Virus record (IMG/VR): IMGVR_UViG_3300027708_000012
Span: 281,370 to 345,369 of that record
Source: a virus
Strand: one strand, 5' to 3'
Length of the DNA stretch: 64,000 nt
A program made the translations under genes and the position numbers. The notes below the pieces were generated by a model that saw only the letters and a list, made by a program, of their open reading frames with translations, did no database searches and was not told the origin of the DNA. Of the stretch, positions 12,935 through 28,650 are shown piece after piece. The stretch's first letter is position 1; each line of letters opens with the position of its first letter.

Positions 12935-13536
12935 TTTTTATTGTATAGTAAACTGGATGCCACTATCATAACAGTCTGTGCCATCTCAATATCTGAAGGT
13001 TTTTCCTTCCATCCGACACTAATTTGCCCGATAAACAAACCTGGTTCTGCTGGAACACTTATGCGACACATGTAGTTTACACCAGATGCTTTATAAGTAA
13101 ATCCAATATAGCTTTGAGGTCTGTTATAGTCTGCACAGGGAATTTTGCCTGACATTAGACCAATAACATCTTCATTGTTATTTAGATTTTTCGTTAACAG
13201 GCCAACATCTGCACCGTCGTGAGTTTTATCATGGCCGCCACTACGACTGGTTAAGTAAGTTAATTTTCTAGTGTTAAGCACAGTATTAACTTCAAACAAT
13301 GCTACTAGTTCTGCATCTGTATTTTTCAGTATAAAGTTTGCGGCTTCTTCATACTTGCCATTCATTTTGGGTAGTGCTTGTTGAGCACGATAACTGGCCA
13401 TAAAGTTATCTTTTTCGCTGTATACGATCCAGCCTCCAAAAGTAAGGAGGCATAGAAACACAACCGTAAATAGGCGAAAAGGACTTTCGCCTATGAACTT
13501 CAATAGTTCAAGCAGGAACTCTTTCAGCTTGTCCAT
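12931..13536 (-). CDS. Membrane-anchored extracytoplasmic protein of the uptake operon
   Basis: The 201-residue protein has one membrane helix near residues 21-41 (LFTVVFLCLLTFGGWIVY) followed by a probable periplasmic alpha/beta domain with two Cys (IPCADYNR and NYMCRISV). The domain could be a small ligand-binding (GAF/Cache-like) module but no signature is decisive. It overlaps the symporter by 29 bases and the racemase by 4, so the three are translated as one unit. A sensor or accessory role in acidic amino-acid uptake is inferred only from context. Confidence 0.55.
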   Translation of the reverse strand: MDKLKEFLLELLKFIGESPFRLFTVVFLCLLTFGGWIVYSEKDNFMASYRAQQALPKMNGKYEEAANFILKNTDAELVALFEVNTVLNTRKLTYLTSRSGGHDKTHDGADVGLLTKNLNNNEDVIGLMSGKIPCADYNRPQSYIGFTYKASGVNYMCRISVPAEPGLFIGQISVGWKEKPSDIEMAQTVMIVASSLLYNKK

Positions 13537-14788
13537 GGTCCACGTCTGCTACAAATGCTGTTACACCCATATTACCAATAACATGGCTGGCTGTGCGAAT
13601 CATATCCATTAGAGGATCAACAGCAATAAACAAGACCAATACTGCTTCGCTTGGTAGTTTTAACAAGTCACAAACAACTGCCACTGTAGCCACTGTTAGA
13701 ATACCTGTAGTACCTGCACTTGCTAGTCCTGCTAAAATGCTACCAAGCAATATAACAATCAATCCACTGGCACCTAATGATAAATCATAAATGCCAGCAA
13801 TAAACGCTGTGGCAATGGCATAGTAAACAATACTTCCAATACGGTTAACAGTAAAGCTCAAGGGAGTAGTTAGTTCTACGGCATCTTTATTATAGCCTAG
13901 TTTAACTAAAGCTTCTTGGCTGTAAGGAATACAAGCTAGGCTTGAACGACTACTAACAGCAATCATAAATGTTTCTTGTATGCCATGCATTGTGTCTATA
14001 ATACTCTTGCGAGATTTCCAGGCAATATATGCTGTAGCAATAGCAACAATAATAAATCCGCCCACAGTCTGCTGAATAATAAAATCAACCATAGTACCAA
14101 AAATGCCTACGCCTACCTTGGCTACTTGTGTTGATATCATGGCAAATAGTGCAATTGGTAAGAAGTAGTTTAAGAACTTGAAAATACTAATACTGGCCTG
14201 TTGGACACTTTTGAAGATATCAATCATAACTTCTTGTCCCACAGACTTTATGTTGCCCAGGGCAATACCGAAGATTAAACAGAAAATAACAATCTTAAGA
14301 CTTTCACCAGATTCTAAACTTTGAAAGATATTTTCTGGAATAAACTTCTGTATCATTGCACCAGCACTTGGCTTAGGTACAACTAGCATTGGCTCTTTTA
14401 GTGTAATTGACATTTCGGTCCCTTGGTCTTTGTTGTTGACCAATGCACCAAGTTGTACTTTCTTTTCGGGAGTCATTTCGCTGCCAGTTAATACTGTCGA
14501 ACCAACGCCAACGACAGAAGCCATGAACATACTAACAACAAAGCCAATGACAATCTTTTTAATCATCGACTGGCTACCTTCTTTCTGTAGCAGTCCAACT
14601 ACACCAACTAGAATAGTGGCAAATAAGAAAGGTAATACAACAACCTTTAATAAACTGATGTAGATACTACCAATAGATTCTAATGCCATAACTTCGTGAG
14701 GCAAATATACCCCGCCAGCTACAGCCAACAGAATACTGCCTAAAATAGTCCAAGGACTAGCTAAAAATTTCTTTATATCGATTTTCAT
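13508..14788 (-). CDS. Dicarboxylate/amino-acid:cation symporter (DAACS/SDF family)
   Basis: The 426-residue polytopic protein is full length for the family (about 400-440). The hairpin-1 serine cluster appears as SSRSSLACIP (279-288), the TM7 motif as NRIGS (315-319, usually NMDGT) and the TM8 motif as DPLMDMIRTASHVIGN (about 391-406). The Arg that binds the substrate side-chain carboxylate and the following Thr are kept, pointing to aspartate, glutamate or a C4 dicarboxylate. Cation-site positions (NMD, and the N and final D of NVxGD) are changed, so coupling may differ. Its ATG overlaps the stop of the binding-protein gene. Confidence 0.88.
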   Translation of the reverse strand: MKIDIKKFLASPWTILGSILLAVAGGVYLPHEVMALESIGSIYISLLKVVVLPFLFATILVGVVGLLQKEGSQSMIKKIVIGFVVSMFMASVVGVGSTVLTGSEMTPEKKVQLGALVNNKDQGTEMSITLKEPMLVVPKPSAGAMIQKFIPENIFQSLESGESLKIVIFCLIFGIALGNIKSVGQEVMIDIFKSVQQASISIFKFLNYFLPIALFAMISTQVAKVGVGIFGTMVDFIIQQTVGGFIIVAIATAYIAWKSRKSIIDTMHGIQETFMIAVSSRSSLACIPYSQEALVKLGYNKDAVELTTPLSFTVNRIGSIVYYAIATAFIAGIYDLSLGASGLIVILLGSILAGLASAGTTGILTVATVAVVCDLLKLPSEAVLVLFIAVDPLMDMIRTASHVIGNMGVTAFVADVDHGQAERVPA

Positions 14789-15606
14789 TTGTTTTCCTTG
14801 TATCTATTCATTAATTTTTTAACATCGATGTCACGGTATTCACTGGAAATGACAAAGTTAGCAATGCCTAATAATTGTAAGCAATTGGGTCTAACAGCCA
14901 CGCCAATTTGATCTACGCTGTCACTAATTGTGATTGTTTTTGTAGTCAAGGCCGCTTCAGGTTTTTCAAAACTAATTTTCTTAATTTCAAACTCGTCACG
15001 ATAAGCGGCATTAATTTTACCACTTGTAACATTTGCTATGACCACGCCCCAGTCATCTTCTGGTAAGAATGTAGCTTTGGGAAAGTTGATACGAGCATAA
15101 GTGTCGTAGCTGGAGTTACGTATAAAACTAATCTTACCATTGAAGTCTCGAATAACTTCATAAGGTTCACGTCCTTTAGTATTCTGACTTAACCAAAGAC
15201 GATTGATAATTATGCTTTGTTTTAGTGTTACATAAGGAGCACTGAATCTCAATGCTTGTAGTCGAGGTCCGGTAATACTTAATTTGCTAATAGCAATGTC
15301 AGCACGACCATCGCGAACTTGTTCTGCCACTTCAGCAAAGCTGGCAGCATCTCTACGGAATTCTACTGGCACGCCTAGTTGTTTGCCAATGCTACGAGCA
15401 ATGTCAACATCTAGTCCGTGTAGGTTATCGTCCTTACCACTAAAGAATGGAGGACTGTCTTTGCCGTTCATGGCCACCACTAATTTGCCTGCTTTTTTAA
15501 TAGCGGCAATGTCAGTGGGCAAAGGAACTTTAGAGTCGGGCATTTGTGCATAGCTAGGAAGTATAGCTAACACGCTGAATGTTAAGGATATTAGTAAGTT
15601 TTTCAT
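14785..15606 (-). CDS. Periplasmic solute-binding protein family 3
   Basis: The 273-residue protein has a signal peptide (about 20 residues, ending SYAQ) and a SBP_bac_3 domain: AGKLVVAMNGKDSPPF, HGLDVDIARSIGKQLGVPVEF, DGRADIAIS and RFSAPYV. These are the landmarks of polar/acidic amino-acid receptors such as GltI and the His/Lys/Arg proteins. It would capture substrate in the periplasm. No ABC permease or ATPase is nearby; instead it is paired with a secondary symporter. It is the first gene of the operon and the late octamer ends five bases before the ATG. Confidence 0.88.
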   Translation of the reverse strand: MKNLLISLTFSVLAILPSYAQMPDSKVPLPTDIAAIKKAGKLVVAMNGKDSPPFFSGKDDNLHGLDVDIARSIGKQLGVPVEFRRDAASFAEVAEQVRDGRADIAISKLSITGPRLQALRFSAPYVTLKQSIIINRLWLSQNTKGREPYEVIRDFNGKISFIRNSSYDTYARINFPKATFLPEDDWGVVIANVTSGKINAAYRDEFEIKKISFEKPEAALTTKTITISDSVDQIGVAVRPNCLQLLGIANFVISSEYRDIDVKKLMNRYKENK

Positions 15607-15701: not shown

Positions 15702-17573
15702 TTAACGTGCTTTTTCAATTTTAGGAGATTTTGCCACAGCAAGGTATGCAGGAGTTGCACTTTGCTGATCATCGTTAAAGTGGAATCCGCCAGAAACTCT
15801 AACAGATGCTTCGCCTTTGCCCATCATTTTGTCAGCCAAGTCGTCACCGTTTTGAATAATGCTGTAATCTAGCGTTTCTGTATTCAAGAACATGATAGCT
15901 TCTACACCGTCTGCACGGTTATAACTAGCATAGGCCAATTTGGTGTATGCTTCCATCATGGCAGGTACTATAATTGTGCCGTCTTCCATAATTGCATTGC
16001 CTATCAGTTCTTCTGCGTCTACGCCAGGAAAAGCAATTTTTCCATCTGGTGTTAATTTTGGAGACTGTTTACCCTTGCCGGCATTTATCATAACTGGTTC
16101 AGCAACGTCGTCCAAATTGGTTATAAGTTTTGATATGGTACTATAAAACAAATCATATGTTTTGTTATAATCGCTATAGATCAAAACTTCATCATTTAAA
16201 CGTCCTAACATTTTATAAGACCAATTGTAATTACAAGCCTCTTTAAATCTGCCATTGGTCTTGTTGTACGTATTAGGTGAGTAATTTTCTTTGGTCATTA
16301 CTTCTTGTTCGCCGTCTTTTCTTGTTCTAATACCTAATTCTGTTCCAGAAGGGAGTTTTTTGGCTGGTGCAGTTCTGATAATCTTTGTGATTTTTTCAGT
16401 CCAGGTGGGCCATGCAGCTGGTCCTTTGAGAATCTTCTTGCTGTTCAGTCTACCGCCGGACGTTGCACCTGCTTTGATTTCCAAGTTGGTGCCAGCTACA
16501 ATCAAATCGCCACCGTGCTGTGCTTTTTGTGCAGGACTACCCATCATACTCAATGCCATTTCGCCCGGCCCGATAGCACCACTAGATTTACCAGGGCTCC
16601 ATGAGAACACTCCGTAGCTGGAGAACAAGTCCAGCATGTCTTCAAAGTTGGTATTAACATGCTGTTTTACATTTCCCACATCTTGCGATATCAACGACTC
16701 CATGTCAATAACTTGGCCGTTATAACAGGCATCTAAAAATTCCACAATACGTGCTCTGTTAAGTTCTTTATTTTGACTCAACATACGCATAATCATGCCA
16801 AAGAAGGCTTGTTTGAATACTGCGGCAAAGTTCTTTGCGTTATCATGTACTTTCTTTTCTGCTTTGGTCAGCGACTTGTATGTGCCCTCATCGATAGCAG
16901 TATAGCCTTGTACTTTATTTGCTAGGGCTTCGAGTTTGTCAAATATACTATTAGTAATCTCTTCAGCTTTTTGTTGCCATACACCTTCTAGTTTGTTAAA
17001 TTCATTACTAACTTTTTTCTTTTTAGCCACTGCCACTGCCAGTTGAGCCACATCTAAGGTTTGATCTAATTTAATCAATCCTTGCACTTCTAACTCTCTA
17101 ATTGCCGCTAAAATAACAGCTTCTCTACTAGGCGATACAATTTTAGTCGCAGCTTCAGTTAATTCAATGTCAGGCTCTAAATTGTTAATAAGTTTGATAA
17201 CTAATTCTTTAGTAGGTTCCCAGTCAGGCAAAGCATTGGCATCTGCTATTAATCTTTTTAATTTGCTAGTAACAACATTTGCAATAATTGGAACATTTTT
17301 AATTGTTGCCGGTTGCTGTTGTCTAGGTGCAGGCTGTGCTATTGGCTGCTGTTGTGCTGGTTGAATAGGTGCCGGAACTGGCTGTTGTGCAGGTTCAGCT
17401 GGTTGTTGTTCTGGAGCAGGTTCAGCTGGTTGTTGTTCTGGAGCAGGTTCGACAGGCGGCTGTTCTGGAGCAGGTTCGACAGGCGGCTGTTGCCCGGGAA
17501 AAGCGGAAAGACGTTTTTCGTCCTCTTCTGGAGTTGTAGGGGCAAATTCTTTTAAAATATCTAGTACACGCAT
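15702..17573 (-). CDS. Tagged nuclease-like candidate virion protein
   Basis: The 623-residue protein begins MRVLDILKEF, one of the window's N-terminal tags, followed by a Pro/Glu/Gln linker with tandem VEPAPEQ-type repeats (about 28-85). The large remainder contains GPGEMALSMMG (about 345) and GGDLIVAGTNLEIKAG (about 365-380), in which Asp and E-I-K are placed as in a PD-(D/E)XK nuclease core. A capsid-packaged nuclease delivered with the DNA is a working guess; the nuclease reading is by motif only. It has a late octamer eight bases before the ATG and no ribosome site. Confidence 0.5.
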   Translation of the reverse strand: MRVLDILKEFAPTTPEEDEKRLSAFPGQQPPVEPAPEQPPVEPAPEQQPAEPAPEQQPAEPAQQPVPAPIQPAQQQPIAQPAPRQQQPATIKNVPIIANVVTSKLKRLIADANALPDWEPTKELVIKLINNLEPDIELTEAATKIVSPSREAVILAAIRELEVQGLIKLDQTLDVAQLAVAVAKKKKVSNEFNKLEGVWQQKAEEITNSIFDKLEALANKVQGYTAIDEGTYKSLTKAEKKVHDNAKNFAAVFKQAFFGMIMRMLSQNKELNRARIVEFLDACYNGQVIDMESLISQDVGNVKQHVNTNFEDMLDLFSSYGVFSWSPGKSSGAIGPGEMALSMMGSPAQKAQHGGDLIVAGTNLEIKAGATSGGRLNSKKILKGPAAWPTWTEKITKIIRTAPAKKLPSGTELGIRTRKDGEQEVMTKENYSPNTYNKTNGRFKEACNYNWSYKMLGRLNDEVLIYSDYNKTYDLFYSTISKLITNLDDVAEPVMINAGKGKQSPKLTPDGKIAFPGVDAEELIGNAIMEDGTIIVPAMMEAYTKLAYASYNRADGVEAIMFLNTETLDYSIIQNGDDLADKMMGKGEASVRVSGGFHFNDDQQSATPAYLAVAKSPKIEKAR

Positions 17574-17581
17574 AGTACTAA

Positions 17582-17589
17582 TATTTATG
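17582..17589 (-). promoter_or_regulatory. T4-type late promoter CATAAATA
   Basis: Eight bases separate the octamer from the ATG at 17573. Confidence 0.65.
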
Positions 17590-18265
17590 CTATTTCAGGG
17601 AACAAGCAATCCTGTATGAAAACCTGTACATCCTCTTCACTAAGCCCTAAGCTAACCATAACTTTAGGAGTATGTGGGTTTTTCTTCTGATTCTCACAAT
17701 AGTAATTCTGAGCGTCAGTAGTATTAGGATGTGTACGTTCGGTTTCTTTTACTGTGGCCAAATAGTGTGTTAGATTCTTACGGGCCATGGCAAGTATTTG
17801 CTCTAGTTCTGCTTCATCGCTGACATTTCCCGCGGCCACCATAGAACCTGTAAAAATACGCTCTGCCCAATCTGGTAACTTGCGAGTTTTATTCCACTCT
17901 AGACGACGAGCTTCTTCAGCAAACCAATCAATCATCGGATGTTCGCTGTCGCCTGCAGGACTAAAATCATGGAAACAGCCTGTGATTTTATTTTTACCAG
18001 CTACAACATCAAATCCAAAGATAGGTGCAGGGTTATCTGTATGCGGGAAAATACAGCAATGCATCATCCATAGACCTTTAGTCTCGCGGGCATCAACTAC
18101 ATCAATATGAGCCCTACGATAAGCACTACTTGTCCAAACTTTGTTTACCCAACCTGGTTGATTAAAACGTTCCATACCAGGCTCTTGAATAATACTACCA
18201 GTTGCATACAACTGACTTTCAAAGTATTCTTCAATTTTAATTAGTGTGTCCCAGACATTACTCAT
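17585..18265 (-). CDS. Ferredoxin-dependent bilin reductase (PcyA/PcyX-like)
   Basis: The 226-residue protein carries the FDBR signature PAPIFGFDVVAGKNKITG followed by FHDFSP, where the Asp of GFD corresponds to the catalytic Asp of PcyA-type enzymes. It should reduce biliverdin IXalpha to a phytobilin using ferredoxin. It follows the heme oxygenase that would supply biliverdin, overlapping it by eight bases. The ATG at 18265 is preferred over an upstream TTG. Which bilin is made cannot be read from the sequence; the compact size fits the viral PcyX/PebS group. Confidence 0.85.
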   Translation of the reverse strand: MSNVWDTLIKIEEYFESQLYATGSIIQEPGMERFNQPGWVNKVWTSSAYRRAHIDVVDARETKGLWMMHCCIFPHTDNPAPIFGFDVVAGKNKITGCFHDFSPAGDSEHPMIDWFAEEARRLEWNKTRKLPDWAERIFTGSMVAAGNVSDEAELEQILAMARKNLTHYLATVKETERTHPNTTDAQNYYCENQKKNPHTPKVMVSLGLSEEDVQVFIQDCLFPEIA

Positions 18266-18806
18266 CTTTATACTCGACAATTTCCATCATTTGTTGGAAG
18301 AACCTTGTGGCGAAATCAAAACATACTTTAGCTTCGTCTGCCATGTCGTCGCTTATACGTTCTCTAATAGCTGCCTTAAGTGCTTCAGGATCTTCAAATT
18401 GGTACATGGTGCCCGACCCAGGAACACGTTTGGCAATCATCTGTCCACCAGCTAGATCACCCATGTGTCGCACATATAAGTGCGCCATTAGTTTTTTTGG
18501 ATTATCTCTGATACTCATGATATAATCCATATATTCTTGGACTATAGGAAGTAGTTCTGCATCGTCCTCATCTGTCCATAGTTCTTTATAGTCCGCATTA
18601 ATTTTTGGTGCTCTGCGAATATCAGGCATGCCGGCCAGCATACCGGTTGCCATAGCACACACTTCTAGTATCTCATATTGCGGATGTTGATTTTTTAAAT
18701 AAGTTGCATACAGTTTAGGATTTATTGTGCCTGAAAACAAAATTTTTACAAATTCCTGTCTTTCAGCATTGGTATGCGCTTCTTTAGTTAAATCTCGTAA
18801 GCTCAT
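18258..18806 (-). CDS. Heme oxygenase
   Basis: The 182-residue helical protein has the proximal heme-ligand His in KEAHTNAE (His11) and the distal-helix signature HLYVRHMGDLAGGQMIAKRV. These mark a biliverdin-forming heme oxygenase that opens heme with O2 and reductant to biliverdin, CO and iron. Its ATG overlaps the clpS stop (ATGA) and its end overlaps the bilin reductase start, so the three are one translational unit. Confidence 0.93.
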   Translation of the reverse strand: MSLRDLTKEAHTNAERQEFVKILFSGTINPKLYATYLKNQHPQYEILEVCAMATGMLAGMPDIRRAPKINADYKELWTDEDDAELLPIVQEYMDYIMSIRDNPKKLMAHLYVRHMGDLAGGQMIAKRVPGSGTMYQFEDPEALKAAIRERISDDMADEAKVCFDFATRFFQQMMEIVEYKDE

Positions 18807-19105
18807 TCTTCCTCCAATTTAATTTGGAGAGGAAAATTATTTTCTCTAGCTGTAGATGTTGTTTCTACGGCCTTAGCCTCGGCAATTTCAAAACTATAAA
18901 TTCCCGCTACTCCACTTCCAGTCTCGTGAATTTGAAGCATAATGTCTCTGGCCGAATCAGTTGAATGCCTAAAGATATTGGATAAAATTGATATCACAAA
19001 CTCCATCGGGGTTACATCGTCATTAAGTATAATGACCTTCCAACGTTTTGGTTCACTGATTACTACTTTAATTTTCTCGTCAATTGCGATATCTGTACTT
19101 GACAT
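18803..19105 (-). CDS. clpS: ClpS adaptor
   Basis: The 100-residue protein matches the ClpS core: WKVIILNDDVTPMEFVISIL, the ligand-pocket DDxTxM segment, the helix IFRHSTDSARDIMLQIHETG and YSFEIAEAKA. ClpS delivers N-degron substrates to ClpAP and blocks SsrA-tagged substrates from ClpA. A phage copy could retune host proteolysis, which is notable because the same phage encodes its own tmRNA. It is the first gene of the ClpS-heme oxygenase-bilin reductase unit. Confidence 0.93.
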   Translation of the reverse strand: MSSTDIAIDEKIKVVISEPKRWKVIILNDDVTPMEFVISILSNIFRHSTDSARDIMLQIHETGSGVAGIYSFEIAEAKAVETTSTARENNFPLQIKLEEE

Positions 19106-19116
19106 TGTGTTCTCTT

Positions 19117-19141
19117 TAAAAAAGGGGGAGTTGCCTCCCCC
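19117..19141 (-). terminator. Terminator after hsp20
   Basis: Minus-strand GGGGGAG-GCAA-CTCCCCC stem is followed by TTTTTTAAA, just after the Hsp20 stop. Confidence 0.85.
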
Positions 19142-19147
19142 GGTTGA

Positions 19148-19579
19148 TTATTTAACTGTAATGATACGTGGCTTCAGTGATTCTGGTACAATACGTTCAA
19201 TCCTAATGATTAACATACCGTCCTTTACTTCAGCGTCTTTGATTTCCATGTACTCAGCAAGAGTCCATGTCTGTTCAAAGTTACGGCTAGCAAGACCTCG
19301 ATGTAAATACTCTTTGTCTTCTGCTGAAATATCAGTTTGCATACCGCGAACAACTAATTGATCTTGGTCTACTTCAACTGTAATTTGATCTTTGCTGAAA
19401 CCTGCTACAGCTACTTCAATTGCATAATCTGTGTCACTATATTTTACAATATTATGTGGCGGATAATTATTTGATTGTTGCTGTAATCTTTGATTAAAGA
19501 TTTGATCAAATCCAACTAAAGCTCTACTTAGTTGTGCAAAGTCCGCTGGACTCACTGTTTTTAATTGCATTGTTGCCAT
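19148..19579 (-). CDS. Small heat-shock protein Hsp20
   Basis: The 143-residue protein is an IbpA-like alpha-crystallin protein. The crystallin domain spans about 40-130 with YAIEVAVAGFSKDQI, LVVRG and a C-terminal beta-strand GMLIIRIERIVP. Hsp20 genes are common in T4-like phages of aquatic bacteria, where a role in virion assembly or stress is assumed. AAGGAG precedes the ATG. It lies between dnaK and clpS and may work with DnaK on unfolded protein. Confidence 0.95.
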   Translation of the reverse strand: MATMQLKTVSPADFAQLSRALVGFDQIFNQRLQQQSNNYPPHNIVKYSDTDYAIEVAVAGFSKDQITVEVDQDQLVVRGMQTDISAEDKEYLHRGLASRNFEQTWTLAEYMEIKDAEVKDGMLIIRIERIVPESLKPRIITVK

Positions 19580-19647: not shown

Positions 19648-21555
19648 TTACTTTTTGTCAGTAGGGTCAACCTCTGTGAAAGCCGCATTAACTGACTGGC
19701 CTTCTTCAGGTTGTACTGGTGCTGATTGCGCTGCACTTTCTGCAGCTTGCTTCTTGGCCATAACTGGACCTGCTGCCTCAAAAAATGTTTCAACTGATTT
19801 TTGAATAACATCTTTGTCGTCCCCTGCGCAAGCAGTTTCTACTGCTTTAACAGCATCGTCAAACTTAGTCTTTTCTTCTTCAGTCAATTGATCTTTGTAT
19901 GTATCATAGTCTTTCTTGATACTGTGTGTAGTACCTTCAGCATTGTTACGTGCTGTGATTAATTCTGCTTGTTTCTTATCTGCTTCGGCATTTTCCTCAG
20001 CTTCTTGAACCATGCGTTTGATCTCAGCTTCTGTCAATCCGCTATCTGACTTGATAGTGATTTTGTTTTCTTTGCCGGTCTTTTTATCCCTGGCACTTAC
20101 ATTTAAAATACCGTTTGCATCGATATCTAATGTAACTTCAATCTGTGGCATGCCACGTGGTGCAGGATCAATACCTTCCAAGTTAAACTCGCCAAGCGAT
20201 TTATTGTACTTGAATAAGTCACGTTCGCCCTGAGCAACCTTAATAGTTACTGCTGGCTGATTGTCATCTGCTGTACTAAATGTTTGGCTATGTTTGGTCG
20301 GGATAGTTGTGTTTTTAGCAATCAGCTTGGTAAACACACCGCCCATTGTTTCAATACCTAGTGTCAATGGAGTAACGTCCAACAACAATACGTCTGTCTT
20401 GTCGCCAGCTAGAACAGCGCCTTGTACTGCGGCACCAGCGGCAACTGCTTCGTCTGGGTTAACGTCTTTACGTGGAGCCTTACCAAACAGTTTCTCAACT
20501 GCTTCTTGTACTTTAGGCATACGTGTTTGACCACCAACTAGAATAACTTCGTCGATGTCTGCGGCGCTAACTTTAGCATCTGCCATAGCAACTTTACATG
20601 GCTCAATTGAACGCTGGATCAGTCCGTCTACCATTGCTTCAAACTTAGCACGGCTGATAGTTACATTCATGTGCTTAGGACCGTTTGCATCTGCTGTAAT
20701 GTAAGGCAAGTTAACACTTGTACTTGCGGCTGTAGATAATTCAATCTTGGCTTTTTCAGCAGACTCTTTCAAACGTTGTAATGCAAGAACGTCTTGCTTC
20801 AAATCAACTCCGTTGTCTTTCTTGAACTCGTCTACCAAATAGTCCATGATAGCTTGGTCAAAGTCTTCACCGCCTAGGAATGTATCGCCGTTTGTTGACA
20901 ATACTTCAATTTGCTTGTCGCCATCAATGTTAGCGATTTCAATGATTGAAATATCAAATGTACCACCACCCAAGTCATAGACTGCAATCTTGCGATCTTT
21001 CTTGTCTGCTTTGTCAACACCATAAGCCAATGCGGCCGCTGTCGGCTCGTTGATAATACGTAGAACTTCTAAGCCTGCAATACGTCCGGCATCTTTAGTA
21101 GCTTGACGCTGGCTATCGTTGAAGTAAGCTGGAACTGTAATAACAGCTTGGGTCACTGTTGTACCTAAATAGTCTTCAGCAGTTTTTTTCATTTTGCGAA
21201 GTACTTCAGCTGATACTTGCTGTGGTGCAAGTTTTTCGCCGTTTGCTTCGATCCAAGCATCACCGTTGTCTGCTTTAATAATGCTGTAGGGCATCAAGTC
21301 AATATCTTTTTGCACAGCAGCTTCGTCAAACTTGCGACCAATAAGGCGCTTGCTGGCGTAAATTGTATTTTTTGGGTTTGTGACTGCTTGTCGTTTTGCT
21401 GTTGCACCAACTAGGATTTCGTCCTTTGTATATGCAATGATTGATGGTGTTGTTCTTGCGCCTTCGCTATTTTCAATAACTTTTGCTACTCCATTTTCTA
21501 GGATAGCTACGCAACTGTTTGTTGTACCTAAATCGATACCGATGATTTTACTCAT
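19648..21555 (-). CDS. dnaK: DnaK (Hsp70) chaperone
   Basis: The 635-residue protein is full length: ATPase phosphate motif [50 protein letters not shown], the linker [19 protein letters not shown], and a complete substrate-binding domain and lid ending DPTDKK. Neither DnaJ nor GrpE is present, so it must use host co-chaperones. AAAGGAG precedes the ATG. A complete dnaK is unusual in a phage; with Hsp20 and ClpS it forms a protein-quality block. Confidence 0.97.
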
Positions 21556-21645: not shown

Positions 21646-21927
21646 TCAAACAGTTTCTTTGAAAATATTTGACCAGATTTTTAGTTTTTCTCGCTTGGCT
21701 TCTGCCGCTTGTTCAATGTTGGTCCAGCTAACTACATCTAGTTCTTGCAGGATTTCAATCATAGCATACAAGTCGCCCAATTCTTCTTCCAAGTGTTCCC
21801 TATTAGTTTTGGGTTTACCTGGCTTAAGATTGTCTAGGCCAAAGCGACTAATCTTACTTACCGCTTGAATAACTTCTGCACATTCTTCTTGGAGAATGTC
21901 CATTACTTCTTTAGTTTGTGAATCCAT
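21646..21927 (-). CDS. MazG-like nucleotide pyrophosphohydrolase
   Basis: The 93-residue all-helical protein has the EECAEVIQA (ExxE) and EELGDLYAM (ExxD) metal-binding motifs of the MazG/dUTPase-type NTP-PPase superfamily. It probably hydrolyses a nucleotide, either to clean the pool or to affect signalling nucleotides, as proposed for phage MazG proteins. It is separated from the exonuclease gene upstream by two bases. Confidence 0.8.
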   Translation of the reverse strand: MDSQTKEVMDILQEECAEVIQAVSKISRFGLDNLKPGKPKTNREHLEEELGDLYAMIEILQELDVVSWTNIEQAAEAKREKLKIWSNIFKETV

Positions 21928-26808: not shown

Positions 26809-27135
26809 TTATACTCGAAAACTTTCACCGCAACCGCAACGGTCACGTTCATTTGGATTGATAAAATCAAATCCTTCATTGAGTCCATTGCGGACCCAGT
26901 CCATTGTTAGTCCGTTTAAGTAGACAAATGACTTTTCATCTACTAATACTACAAAATCATTTTGAGCAAAGTTGATTACTCCAACTTCATGTTCGTAGCT
27001 GTCTACATATTCTAGAACATATGCTAATCCGCTACATCCAGTGGTTCTAACACCTATGCGTATTCCAACGCCTTTACCACGACGTTCTAAAGTTTGTTTA
27101 ATTTTTTTACTTGCCGTGTTGGTTATATTAATCAT
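26809..27135 (-). CDS. A-type iron-sulfur carrier (IscA-like)
   Basis: The 108-residue protein has the HesB/IscA pattern with all three ligand Cys: TTGCSG (Cys34) and RCGCGES (Cys100, Cys102). It carries or transfers Fe-S clusters. It overlaps the end of the halogenase gene by eight bases and is the last gene of the carbamoyltransferase-IscU-halogenase-IscA operon. Confidence 0.92.
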   Translation of the reverse strand: MINITNTASKKIKQTLERRGKGVGIRIGVRTTGCSGLAYVLEYVDSYEHEVGVINFAQNDFVVLVDEKSFVYLNGLTMDWVRNGLNEGFDFINPNERDRCGCGESFRV

Positions 27136-28273
27136 TTATTAAATTATTTAATCTTGGATATAAATCTAAGTTTCCTAAATTTAATTTTAAATTCCAATAT
27201 TCCCACATTGCATATTGAATTTCAAATGCAGGGACACTTGGATCAATAATTTTTAATAACTCTCTAAACTTAGGATCTTCTGCTTTTGATAATATATGAT
27301 TGTATGCCGATAGTCTAGCATGTTTCCAAAATGCAGTATTATATTTGTTTGAACTAAAATAATGCAATAAAATTATTGTTTCAATTTCTGAAACTAGTTG
27401 GAGGAAATAATTATTAACCGCCTCAACCGGGACATTATTATTCCATTGATCATAGGCAAGTTGCTGAACTTTAGTAGAAAGCCATAATGGAGTAGTTTCC
27501 ATAGGTTCTAAAAACATACTTGCACTACCATTGTATACTATTCGTTTAGTAAAATTTTCTTTACGAAAGTAATTTTTCCAAGAAAATGTGCCAGTGTTCT
27601 CGCTAGGTATTAATTGGTATTCTTCAAAGACATTAACAACATCGTCTTTGATGTCATCGACATTATTAATATCTGTATTATATACATACCCAACAGCACA
27701 CCTGTTTTGCAACGGTACACAAAACACCCACCCGTATGGTCTAGCAATAGTCAGTGTTTCATTAAACTTAGGGTAATCCCAGTAACACTGAGTTATATAA
27801 GCGCCGTTTACTGGGATTGAACTAGTAGTCGAATAATCATCAAAATTTGTTGGCCTGCCTGAACAATCAATTACAAAGTCAGAATCTATATCTTCATTTG
27901 CAATATTTTTATCAATAAGTTTTATTCTTGGATTAGTCGATGCATAGTTAACTATATATTCTTGTAGTTTAACAGCATTAAAATGATATCCTACAGCAGG
28001 TGGTGCAAAATAATTTAAAATAGGTTTTTCTGAAAACCCAATTTTTTTAACACCTGTTTTAAAAGTACCATCTATTAAATGCAAATCACTATGTGTAAAT
28101 CCAAATAAATCGTGAAGCTGTTGTGTAAATCCAACAAAGCCGCCTTCACCTACTGGTTGCGGCTTTATATTGCTGTCAAAGTACCAGTCTATTTCCCAAT
28201 CGGTGTATTTTAGAAAATGTCCCACATTCATGCAACCTGCGGTGCCTTTTCCAACTATGGCTAATTTTTTCAT
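27128..28273 (-). CDS. Flavin-dependent tryptophan halogenase-like protein
   Basis: The 381-residue protein starts with a dinucleotide-binding VGKGTAGCMNVGHFL and contains GWVFCVPLQNRCAVGYVY, corresponding to the GWxWxIPL-R-x-GYVY segment of the Trp_halogenase family, and a C-terminal helical region. The catalytic Lys and the second flavin-halogenase motif are not clear by eye, so it may be a related flavin monooxygenase. Its ATG overlaps the iscU stop. Similar genes occur in some T4-like phages; the substrate is unknown. Confidence 0.72.
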   Translation of the reverse strand: MKKLAIVGKGTAGCMNVGHFLKYTDWEIDWYFDSNIKPQPVGEGGFVGFTQQLHDLFGFTHSDLHLIDGTFKTGVKKIGFSEKPILNYFAPPAVGYHFNAVKLQEYIVNYASTNPRIKLIDKNIANEDIDSDFVIDCSGRPTNFDDYSTTSSIPVNGAYITQCYWDYPKFNETLTIARPYGWVFCVPLQNRCAVGYVYNTDINNVDDIKDDVVNVFEEYQLIPSENTGTFSWKNYFRKENFTKRIVYNGSASMFLEPMETTPLWLSTKVQQLAYDQWNNNVPVEAVNNYFLQLVSEIETIILLHYFSSNKYNTAFWKHARLSAYNHILSKAEDPKFRELLKIIDPSVPAFEIQYAMWEYWNLKLNLGNLDLYPRLNNLIND

Positions 28274-28650
28274 TTGTGTTTTTCTTTATAGTCTGCTATT
28301 GCAGCTTTGATAGCATCTTCTGCTAGAATTGAACAATGTATCTTTACAGGCGGGAGTGCAAGCTCTTCTGCGATCTGGGAGTTTTTAAGGTTAACAGCAT
28401 CATTAATATGCATACCCTTAACCCACTCTGTAACCAACGACGAACTGGCGATTGCTGAACCGCATCCATATGTCTTGAAACGAGCATCTCTAATAATACC
28501 ATCTTTGTCTACCTTTATTTGTAGTTTCATTACATCACCGCAGGCTGGTGCTCCAACCATTCCAGTTCCTATACCATCTTCATCTTTGGCAAAAGAACCT
28601 ACATTTCGGGGATTTTCGTAATGATCTATTACCTTGTCTGAATATGCCAT
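28270..28650 (-). CDS. IscU-like iron-sulfur scaffold
   Basis: The 126-residue protein keeps all three scaffold Cys at the E. coli positions (Cys37 in PACGDV, Cys63 in YGCGSA, Cys106 in IHCSIL) and the LPPVK motif that HscA recognises. It should be a working Fe-S scaffold that uses host IscS and HscA/HscB. AAAAGG precedes the ATG. With IscA it gives the phage part of an Fe-S assembly line, perhaps for NrdAB support or the ferredoxin-dependent steps encoded nearby. Confidence 0.94.
   Translation of the reverse strand: MAYSDKVIDHYENPRNVGSFAKDEDGIGTGMVGAPACGDVMKLQIKVDKDGIIRDARFKTYGCGSAIASSSLVTEWVKGMHINDAVNLKNSQIAEELALPPVKIHCSILAEDAIKAAIADYKEKHK

Follow-up and report, generated by a model that had tools for sequence, protein, structure and literature searches.

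A conserved operon joins clpS and chaperone genes to heme oxygenase and a PcyX-type bilin reductase in a group of jumbo phages

A conserved block of chaperone, ClpS and bilin genes

In a T4-like jumbo myophage, the gene for the N-degron adaptor ClpS is followed directly by genes for a heme oxygenase (HO) and a ferredoxin-dependent bilin reductase (FDBR), and these are the last three genes of a five-gene minus-strand block, dnaK-hsp20-clpS-HO-FDBR. Dozens of related viruses have the same order, as would fit phages that manage host proteins and, simultaneously, host heme or iron. The window analysed here, the whole stretch of 64,000 nucleotides, comprises positions 281,370 to 345,369 of a virus record totalling 345,369 bp. 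Since the record contains T4-like head and tail genes (among them Gp23, a tail-sheath stabiliser and an S77 prohead protease), the virus is a jumbo myophage of 345 kb.

The FDBR gene (17585 to 18280, minus strand; PF05996, 2.5e-17) likely starts with the ATG at 18265, giving 226 aa, with a TTG at 18280 as the alternative start (231 aa). Upstream of it on the same strand lie the gene for a compact HO of 182 aa (18258 to 18806; PF01126, 3.6e-21) and the gene for ClpS, a protein of 100 aa (18803 to 19105; PF02617, 2.9e-29). clpS and HO overlap by 4 bases (18803 to 18806), the ATGA being shared by the clpS stop and the HO start. HO and FDBR overlap by 8 bases if the ATG at 18265 is used and by 23 bases if translation starts at the TTG at 18280. 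Both overlaps, of four and eight bases, had been described in an earlier note on this DNA and were confirmed, the second for the ATG start. The operon of clpS, HO and FDBR described there was correct as far as it went, but it missed the upstream genes, which are also on the minus strand: hsp20 for a small heat-shock protein (19148 to 19579; PF00011, 2e-15; phrog_432, 5.9e-39), dnaK for a full-length DnaK of 635 aa (19648 to 21555; PF00012, 5.1e-255) and, as a neighbour kept in most relatives, a gene for a MazG-like pyrophosphohydrolase (21646 to 21927), assigned by PF03819 (3.1e-06) and synteny. Downstream of FDBR, a gene for a 623-aa protein with no Pfam or PHROG match (15702 to 17573, minus strand) lies outside the conserved block.

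The HO and FDBR proteins

The HO reached 76.4 bits against PF01126 (cut-off, 23 bits) and matched canonical HOs in phmmer. Its proximal His11 and the Gly and Asp residues of the distal-helix motif GDLAGG (G116, D117 and G120) are invariant in 85/85 relatives. The closest solved chain to the FDBR was PcyX EBK42635 (5owg, E = 2.4e-73), with PcyA far behind (8.7e-14). Asp60, His74 and Asp91 of the FDBR correspond to Asp55, His69 and Asp86 of PcyX and are conserved in 84/85, 85/85 and 85/85 relatives, respectively; the PcyX-specific role of Asp55 is taken from PMC11480375. Judged by its sequence, the FDBR is a PcyX-type enzyme with its catalytic residues intact. The reasoning on residues given in PMC11480375 then predicts that it forms the pink pigment phycoerythrobilin from biliverdin. 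The activities of both enzymes, like this product, are predictions; related phage HO and FDBR proteins were active in vitro (PMC11480375). The profile matches to PF01126 and PF05996 support the viral HO and bilin reductase pair proposed in the earlier note; of the reductase types mentioned there (PebS/PcyX), the best solved relative and the intact residues point to PcyX. In the same operon slot of one relative (L124:5844-6503), PcyX is replaced by a divergent bilin reductase of 46% identity, which has Cys at the position of PcyX Asp55 and whose product may differ.

A phage-encoded ClpS-ClpA-ClpP set

ClpS reached 101 bits against PF02617, its best solved match was 3dnj (2.5e-21), and the N, D, T and H residues of its N-degron pocket are invariant in 79/79 sequences. 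The same genome encodes a ClpA-type unfoldase of 758 aa, which has the N domain and an IGF motif and whose gene adjoins that of DnaJ. The best NCBIfam family of this protein was TIGR02639 (7.8e-265), with a score of 880.6 bits that lies under the cut-off of 993; because ClpA is nevertheless the best family, the sequence identifies the protein as a divergent ClpA. A ClpP with the catalytic Ser-His-Asp is encoded as well, and the ClpAPS set of the phage is complete. ClpA and ClpP are also present in the other three cassette records larger than 350 kb (G001, G002 and G009), and a complete phage-run N-degron protease is suggested to be common in this jumbo phage group. Leu/Phe-tRNA transferase had no match in the phage genome.

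The most likely partners of ClpS are the ClpA and ClpP encoded by the phage itself, alongside the phage DnaK and Hsp20. Action of ClpS with host ClpAP only is weakened by the phage-encoded ClpA and ClpP. The proposal of the earlier note that ClpS could alter protein degradation needs amending to this extent: ClpS more likely acts with these phage partners than alone on host degradation.

Conservation of the clpS linkage

Relatives were collected from IMG/VR with four baits: the reductase, ClpS, DnaK and a second HO type. The reductase bait yielded 435 relatives, and most of the best 80 loci contained dnaK-hsp20-clpS-HO-FDBR; in 16 of these best 80 of 435, which include loci on short contigs, HO and FDBR were present and no ClpS was detected. 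With ClpS as bait, HO came next wherever the locus extended far enough downstream. DnaK, which as a bait does not select for HO, gave ClpS-HO in 72/75 informative loci (the exceptions being L414, L374 and L415), and the second HO type had ClpS upstream in 77/78 loci. In related loci counted without dereplication by contig, so that some share contigs, the gap between clpS and HO was exactly -4 in 120/138 and HO overlapped FDBR in 135/138. This conservation rules out a chance adjacency of clpS with HO-FDBR. One of the exceptions (L414:5001-11071) is a natural HO-less relative, in which dnaK-hsp20-clpS is present and a gene for ClpP lies close by.

Mosig-like pelagiphages had the ClpS link in 0/81 loci, and the clpS link is therefore a trait of one jumbo phage group. 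In the Mosig set, HO-FDBR adjoins neck genes and genes for ferrochelatase and 2OG-Fe(II) oxygenases; thus, HO and FDBR form a pair that is older or mobile, and what marks the jumbo phage group is the coupling of this pair to clpS. Some other phages with HO-FDBR outside the Mosig-like group also have no clpS. The labels marine and freshwater used here are based on likeness to Mosig, not on habitat records. An absence of the clpS association from all relatives, which the earlier note had set against its own proposal, was looked for and did not occur: the association is conserved in the counts given above but is missing from Mosig-like and some other phages. Convergently oriented pairs of cassettes on a single contig were seen in L360 and in contig 3300027679_000366 (L142 and L147); these are either duplications or assembly chimeras.

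Between hsp20 and clpS, immediately before the region where ribosomes would bind for clpS, the window has a hairpin with a GNRA tetraloop, GGGGGAG-GCAA-CTCCCCC (19124 to 19141, minus strand). A GC-rich hairpin was present in 78/79 representatives, 13 to 29 nt before the clpS start, and most copies have a GNRA loop. The 7 inner pairs were paired in 378/378 cells across 54 distinct tetraloop versions, with both sides varying; shuffling gave a mean of 338 and a maximum of 350, although the choice of the best stem per region favours pairing. A U-tract (T5 or longer) followed the hairpin in only 5/78 relatives, and the window copy has one. Since most copies are without a U-tract, an intrinsic terminator was rejected, and the hairpin is more likely a 5' stabiliser or a processing site of the clpS-HO-FDBR message than a terminator.

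Turnover of alleles within a constant arrangement

The conserved block ends at FDBR, because the gene after it falls into at least 9 families among relatives; the family of the 623-aa protein adjoins FDBR in only 7/73 relatives. The variable genes after FDBR often start with a short leader resembling MR(V/I/F)x(D/E)I(L/I)xEA (44/74 by a loose pattern), which we take to be similar to the T4 capsid-targeting leaders of packaged internal proteins.

In trees, HO formed two deep lineages, both of which occupy the clpS-adjacent slot, and the FDBR trees did not follow ClpS context; thus, the alleles turn over and the arrangement stays. These trees were quick and contain several long branches, and where the L124 FDBR belongs in them is uncertain. 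Compared with the proteins encoded in the window, the close relative L072 is 98% identical in ClpS, 92% in HO and 74% in FDBR, and L001 is 91% identical in FDBR and about 70% in ClpS; FDBR alleles are evidently exchanged among relatives. ClpS itself diverges down to about 55% identity within the group, with the order from DnaK to FDBR kept. Median dN/dS was about 0.14 for ClpS, about 0.07 for HO and about 0.10 for FDBR, which shows strong purifying selection on each of the three genes. Turnover with a kept order, together with low dN/dS, argues for selection on function and arrangement and is no proof of a process shared by ClpS and HO.

Host and iron-related genes of the phage

The nearest bacterial relatives of the phage DnaK are mostly from Burkholderiales, with up to 74% identity, and the host is probably Burkholderiales-like. 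For the same reason a cyanobacterial host is unlikely, although dnaK can be transferred; the suggestion of the earlier note that the host is not a cyanobacterium is supported to this degree. No phytochrome (PHY), phycobilisome or phycobiliprotein domain was found in the phage genome, and neither PF00502 nor PF00360 matched it. Phage-encoded phytochrome or phycobiliprotein partners were thus rejected, and the bilin signal considered in the earlier note found no support inside the phage. A pigment-maintenance set of the cyanophage type was rejected because PF00502 and PF00360 are missing from the phage and its DnaK, from which we infer the host, is closest to Burkholderiales.

Genes for iron and redox proteins are numerous: the genome encodes a Dps-like protein, rubrerythrin, IscU, two IscA-like proteins and an Fe/Mn superoxide dismutase, and also a class I ribonucleotide reductase, several 2OG-Fe(II) oxygenases and fatty-acid desaturases. 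Of these, the Fe-S scaffold IscU (28270 to 28650, minus strand; TIGR01999, 2.2e-66, above cut-off) and an IscA-like protein (26809 to 27135, minus strand; TIGR02011, 6e-39; TIGR00049 above cut-off) lie in the window and outside the operon. Dps was not found in G002, another large cassette record. Since no gene for a [2Fe-2S] ferredoxin was found in the 345-kb record, the electron donor of the FDBR must be host-derived. Genome-wide searches were run over overlapping tiles of the record.

Possible function of the operon

Tentatively, we favor a co-expressed host-takeover operon with a proteostasis arm and a heme arm that are linked via heme set free or in surplus. The proteostasis arm would comprise DnaK, Hsp20 and ClpS, the last of which would hand N-degron proteins to the phage ClpA-ClpP encoded elsewhere. 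In the heme arm, HO would open heme to biliverdin, iron and CO, and the PcyX-type FDBR would reduce biliverdin to phycoerythrobilin with host ferredoxin, thereby driving the HO reaction forward by removing a reactive product. It is established enzymology that removal of biliverdin by a reductase with ferredoxin keeps HO turning. Degradation or remodelling of host proteins would free heme or leave a heme surplus; HO and FDBR would dispose of this pro-oxidant heme, and the iron would go to the phage Dps, to IscU/IscA and to iron enzymes. That the substrates of ClpS-ClpAP are the heme source or control heme synthesis is speculative. The two-arm operon is favored by the order and overlaps kept with all four baits and by the HO slot, which is conserved through a change of lineage; against it count the [2Fe-2S] ferredoxin gene not found in the record and the Dps not found in G002. 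Each arm can also exist alone, since L414 keeps dnaK-hsp20-clpS with no HO, and ClpS is missing from other phages that have HO-FDBR. The full chain, in which ClpS-ClpA-ClpP would free heme or stop its synthesis, a translationally coupled HO-PcyX would convert it to iron and phycoerythrobilin, and Dps and IscU/IscA would capture the iron, appears unlikely.

The strongest rival is co-expression without coupling, that is, a general stress-protection operon in which the chaperones and ClpS tend phage proteins while HO-FDBR separately remove heme and make an antioxidant bilin. Genes for Dps, superoxide dismutase and rubrerythrin are indeed present, clpS occurs in other jumbo phages without an HO match, and the Mosig-like phages and L414 each have one half without the other; the exact 4-base overlap of clpS and HO, however, survives replacement of HO and is tighter than shared timing needs, and we consider this possibility somewhat unlikely. 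Improbable, in our view, is synteny by descent, an order inherited within one phage group without selection having tied ClpS to heme breakdown. Nearly all ClpS-linked loci do share the dnaK-hsp20 context, most share mazG, and the link is absent outside the group, but the downstream neighbor varies freely (at least 9 families) while the genes from DnaK to FDBR stay, and their order is kept despite the divergence of ClpS to about 55% identity and the replacement of HO.

Alternatively, ClpS-ClpAP might degrade a host enzyme of heme synthesis, such as GluTR/HemA, and together with HO deplete the cell of heme. The C5 pathway is expected of a Burkholderiales-like host, which counts for this possibility. 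Precedents are given in PMC6597238, which cites a tie of GluTR turnover to the plastid Clp protease and its ClpS1 selector and heme-regulated proteolysis of HemA in Salmonella. Yet the ferrochelatase near HO-FDBR in Mosig-like phages points to synthesis of heme alongside its breakdown in those phages, and we hold degradation of GluTR/HemA to be very improbable. Scarcely to be expected is a role of phycoerythrobilin as chromophore or signal that loads or jams host bacteriophytochromes and shifts light responses. The reductase is PcyX-like, and the PcyA of a related phage could supply a phytochrome chromophore in laboratory co-expression (PMC11480375), but the phage genome has no PHY or phycobilisome domain, and clpS and the chaperones would be left unexplained.

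Relation to known systems

Each of the parts, viral HO-PcyX, the freshwater HO-FDBR cassette and phage Clp genes, has been described before; their joining to clpS appears to be new. In the literature searched, with most subscription journals outside the search, we found no paper that links clpS to a phage bilin reductase, or clpS, dnaK and hsp20 to a phage HO. As in the marine HO-PcyX cassette (PcyX EBK42635; Pelagibacter phage Mosig EXVC030M), HO is followed directly by an overlapping PcyX-type FDBR with the same catalytic Asp/His/Asp, and identity to Mosig EXVC030M is 53.5% for FDBR and 41.6% for HO; the Mosig-like cassette, however, lies beside neck genes together with genes for ferrochelatase and 2OG oxygenases, and includes neither ClpS nor chaperones. 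The freshwater valaS-hemO-pcyA/X cassette (CB_2; PMC11480375) likewise is an HO and FDBR of a freshwater phage with a non-photosynthetic host proposed, but an AlaS gene accompanies the pair there, whereas AlaS (TIGR01821) had no match in the 345-kb record, and membership in that cassette was rejected. Moreover, the PcyA of CB_2 is without the PcyX-specific Asp that the FDBR keeps here, and ClpS, DnaK and Hsp20 are not mentioned for the CB_2 cassette in PMC11480375.

Like our phage, the Rak2-like jumbo Agrobacterium phage Atu_ph07 has genes for ClpA, for a proteolytic subunit of Clp and for ClpS, and its DnaJ bears the number adjacent to that of ClpA (gp293, gp292) (PMC6102473). In contrast, HO is not mentioned for Atu_ph07 in PMC6102473 and none was found by tblastn, and its clpS was not reported in a heme operon. 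All three proteins of the bacterial ClpS-ClpA-ClpP N-degron system are present here with key residues conserved, but they are phage-encoded and come without a Leu/Phe-tRNA transferase found in the phage. Bilin genes in phages of non-photosynthetic bacteria have been called enigmatic (PMC11480375). Their conserved linkage with ClpS and chaperones places them in a definite setting other than pigment synthesis, and a role in heme and iron handling or in proteostasis can now be tested directly.

Further genes of the phage

A tmRNA gene was called by ARAGORN at 1663 to 2106 of the window (minus strand), with a tag ending in ANDAEFALAA. At 13508 to 15606 (minus strand), a family 3 solute-binding protein is followed by a sodium:dicarboxylate symporter; these possible nutrient-uptake genes are conserved in a subset of relatives. 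A search for pmoC (AmoC) gave no match, and its control also matched nowhere. At 26809 to 28650 (minus strand), the IscA and IscU genes form a cluster with a gene between them for a 381-aa protein that had no NCBIfam match. Tryptophan halogenase was matched by five proteins, and carbamoyltransferases were present as well (tiles L161 to L165 and the window), which is unusual for a phage.
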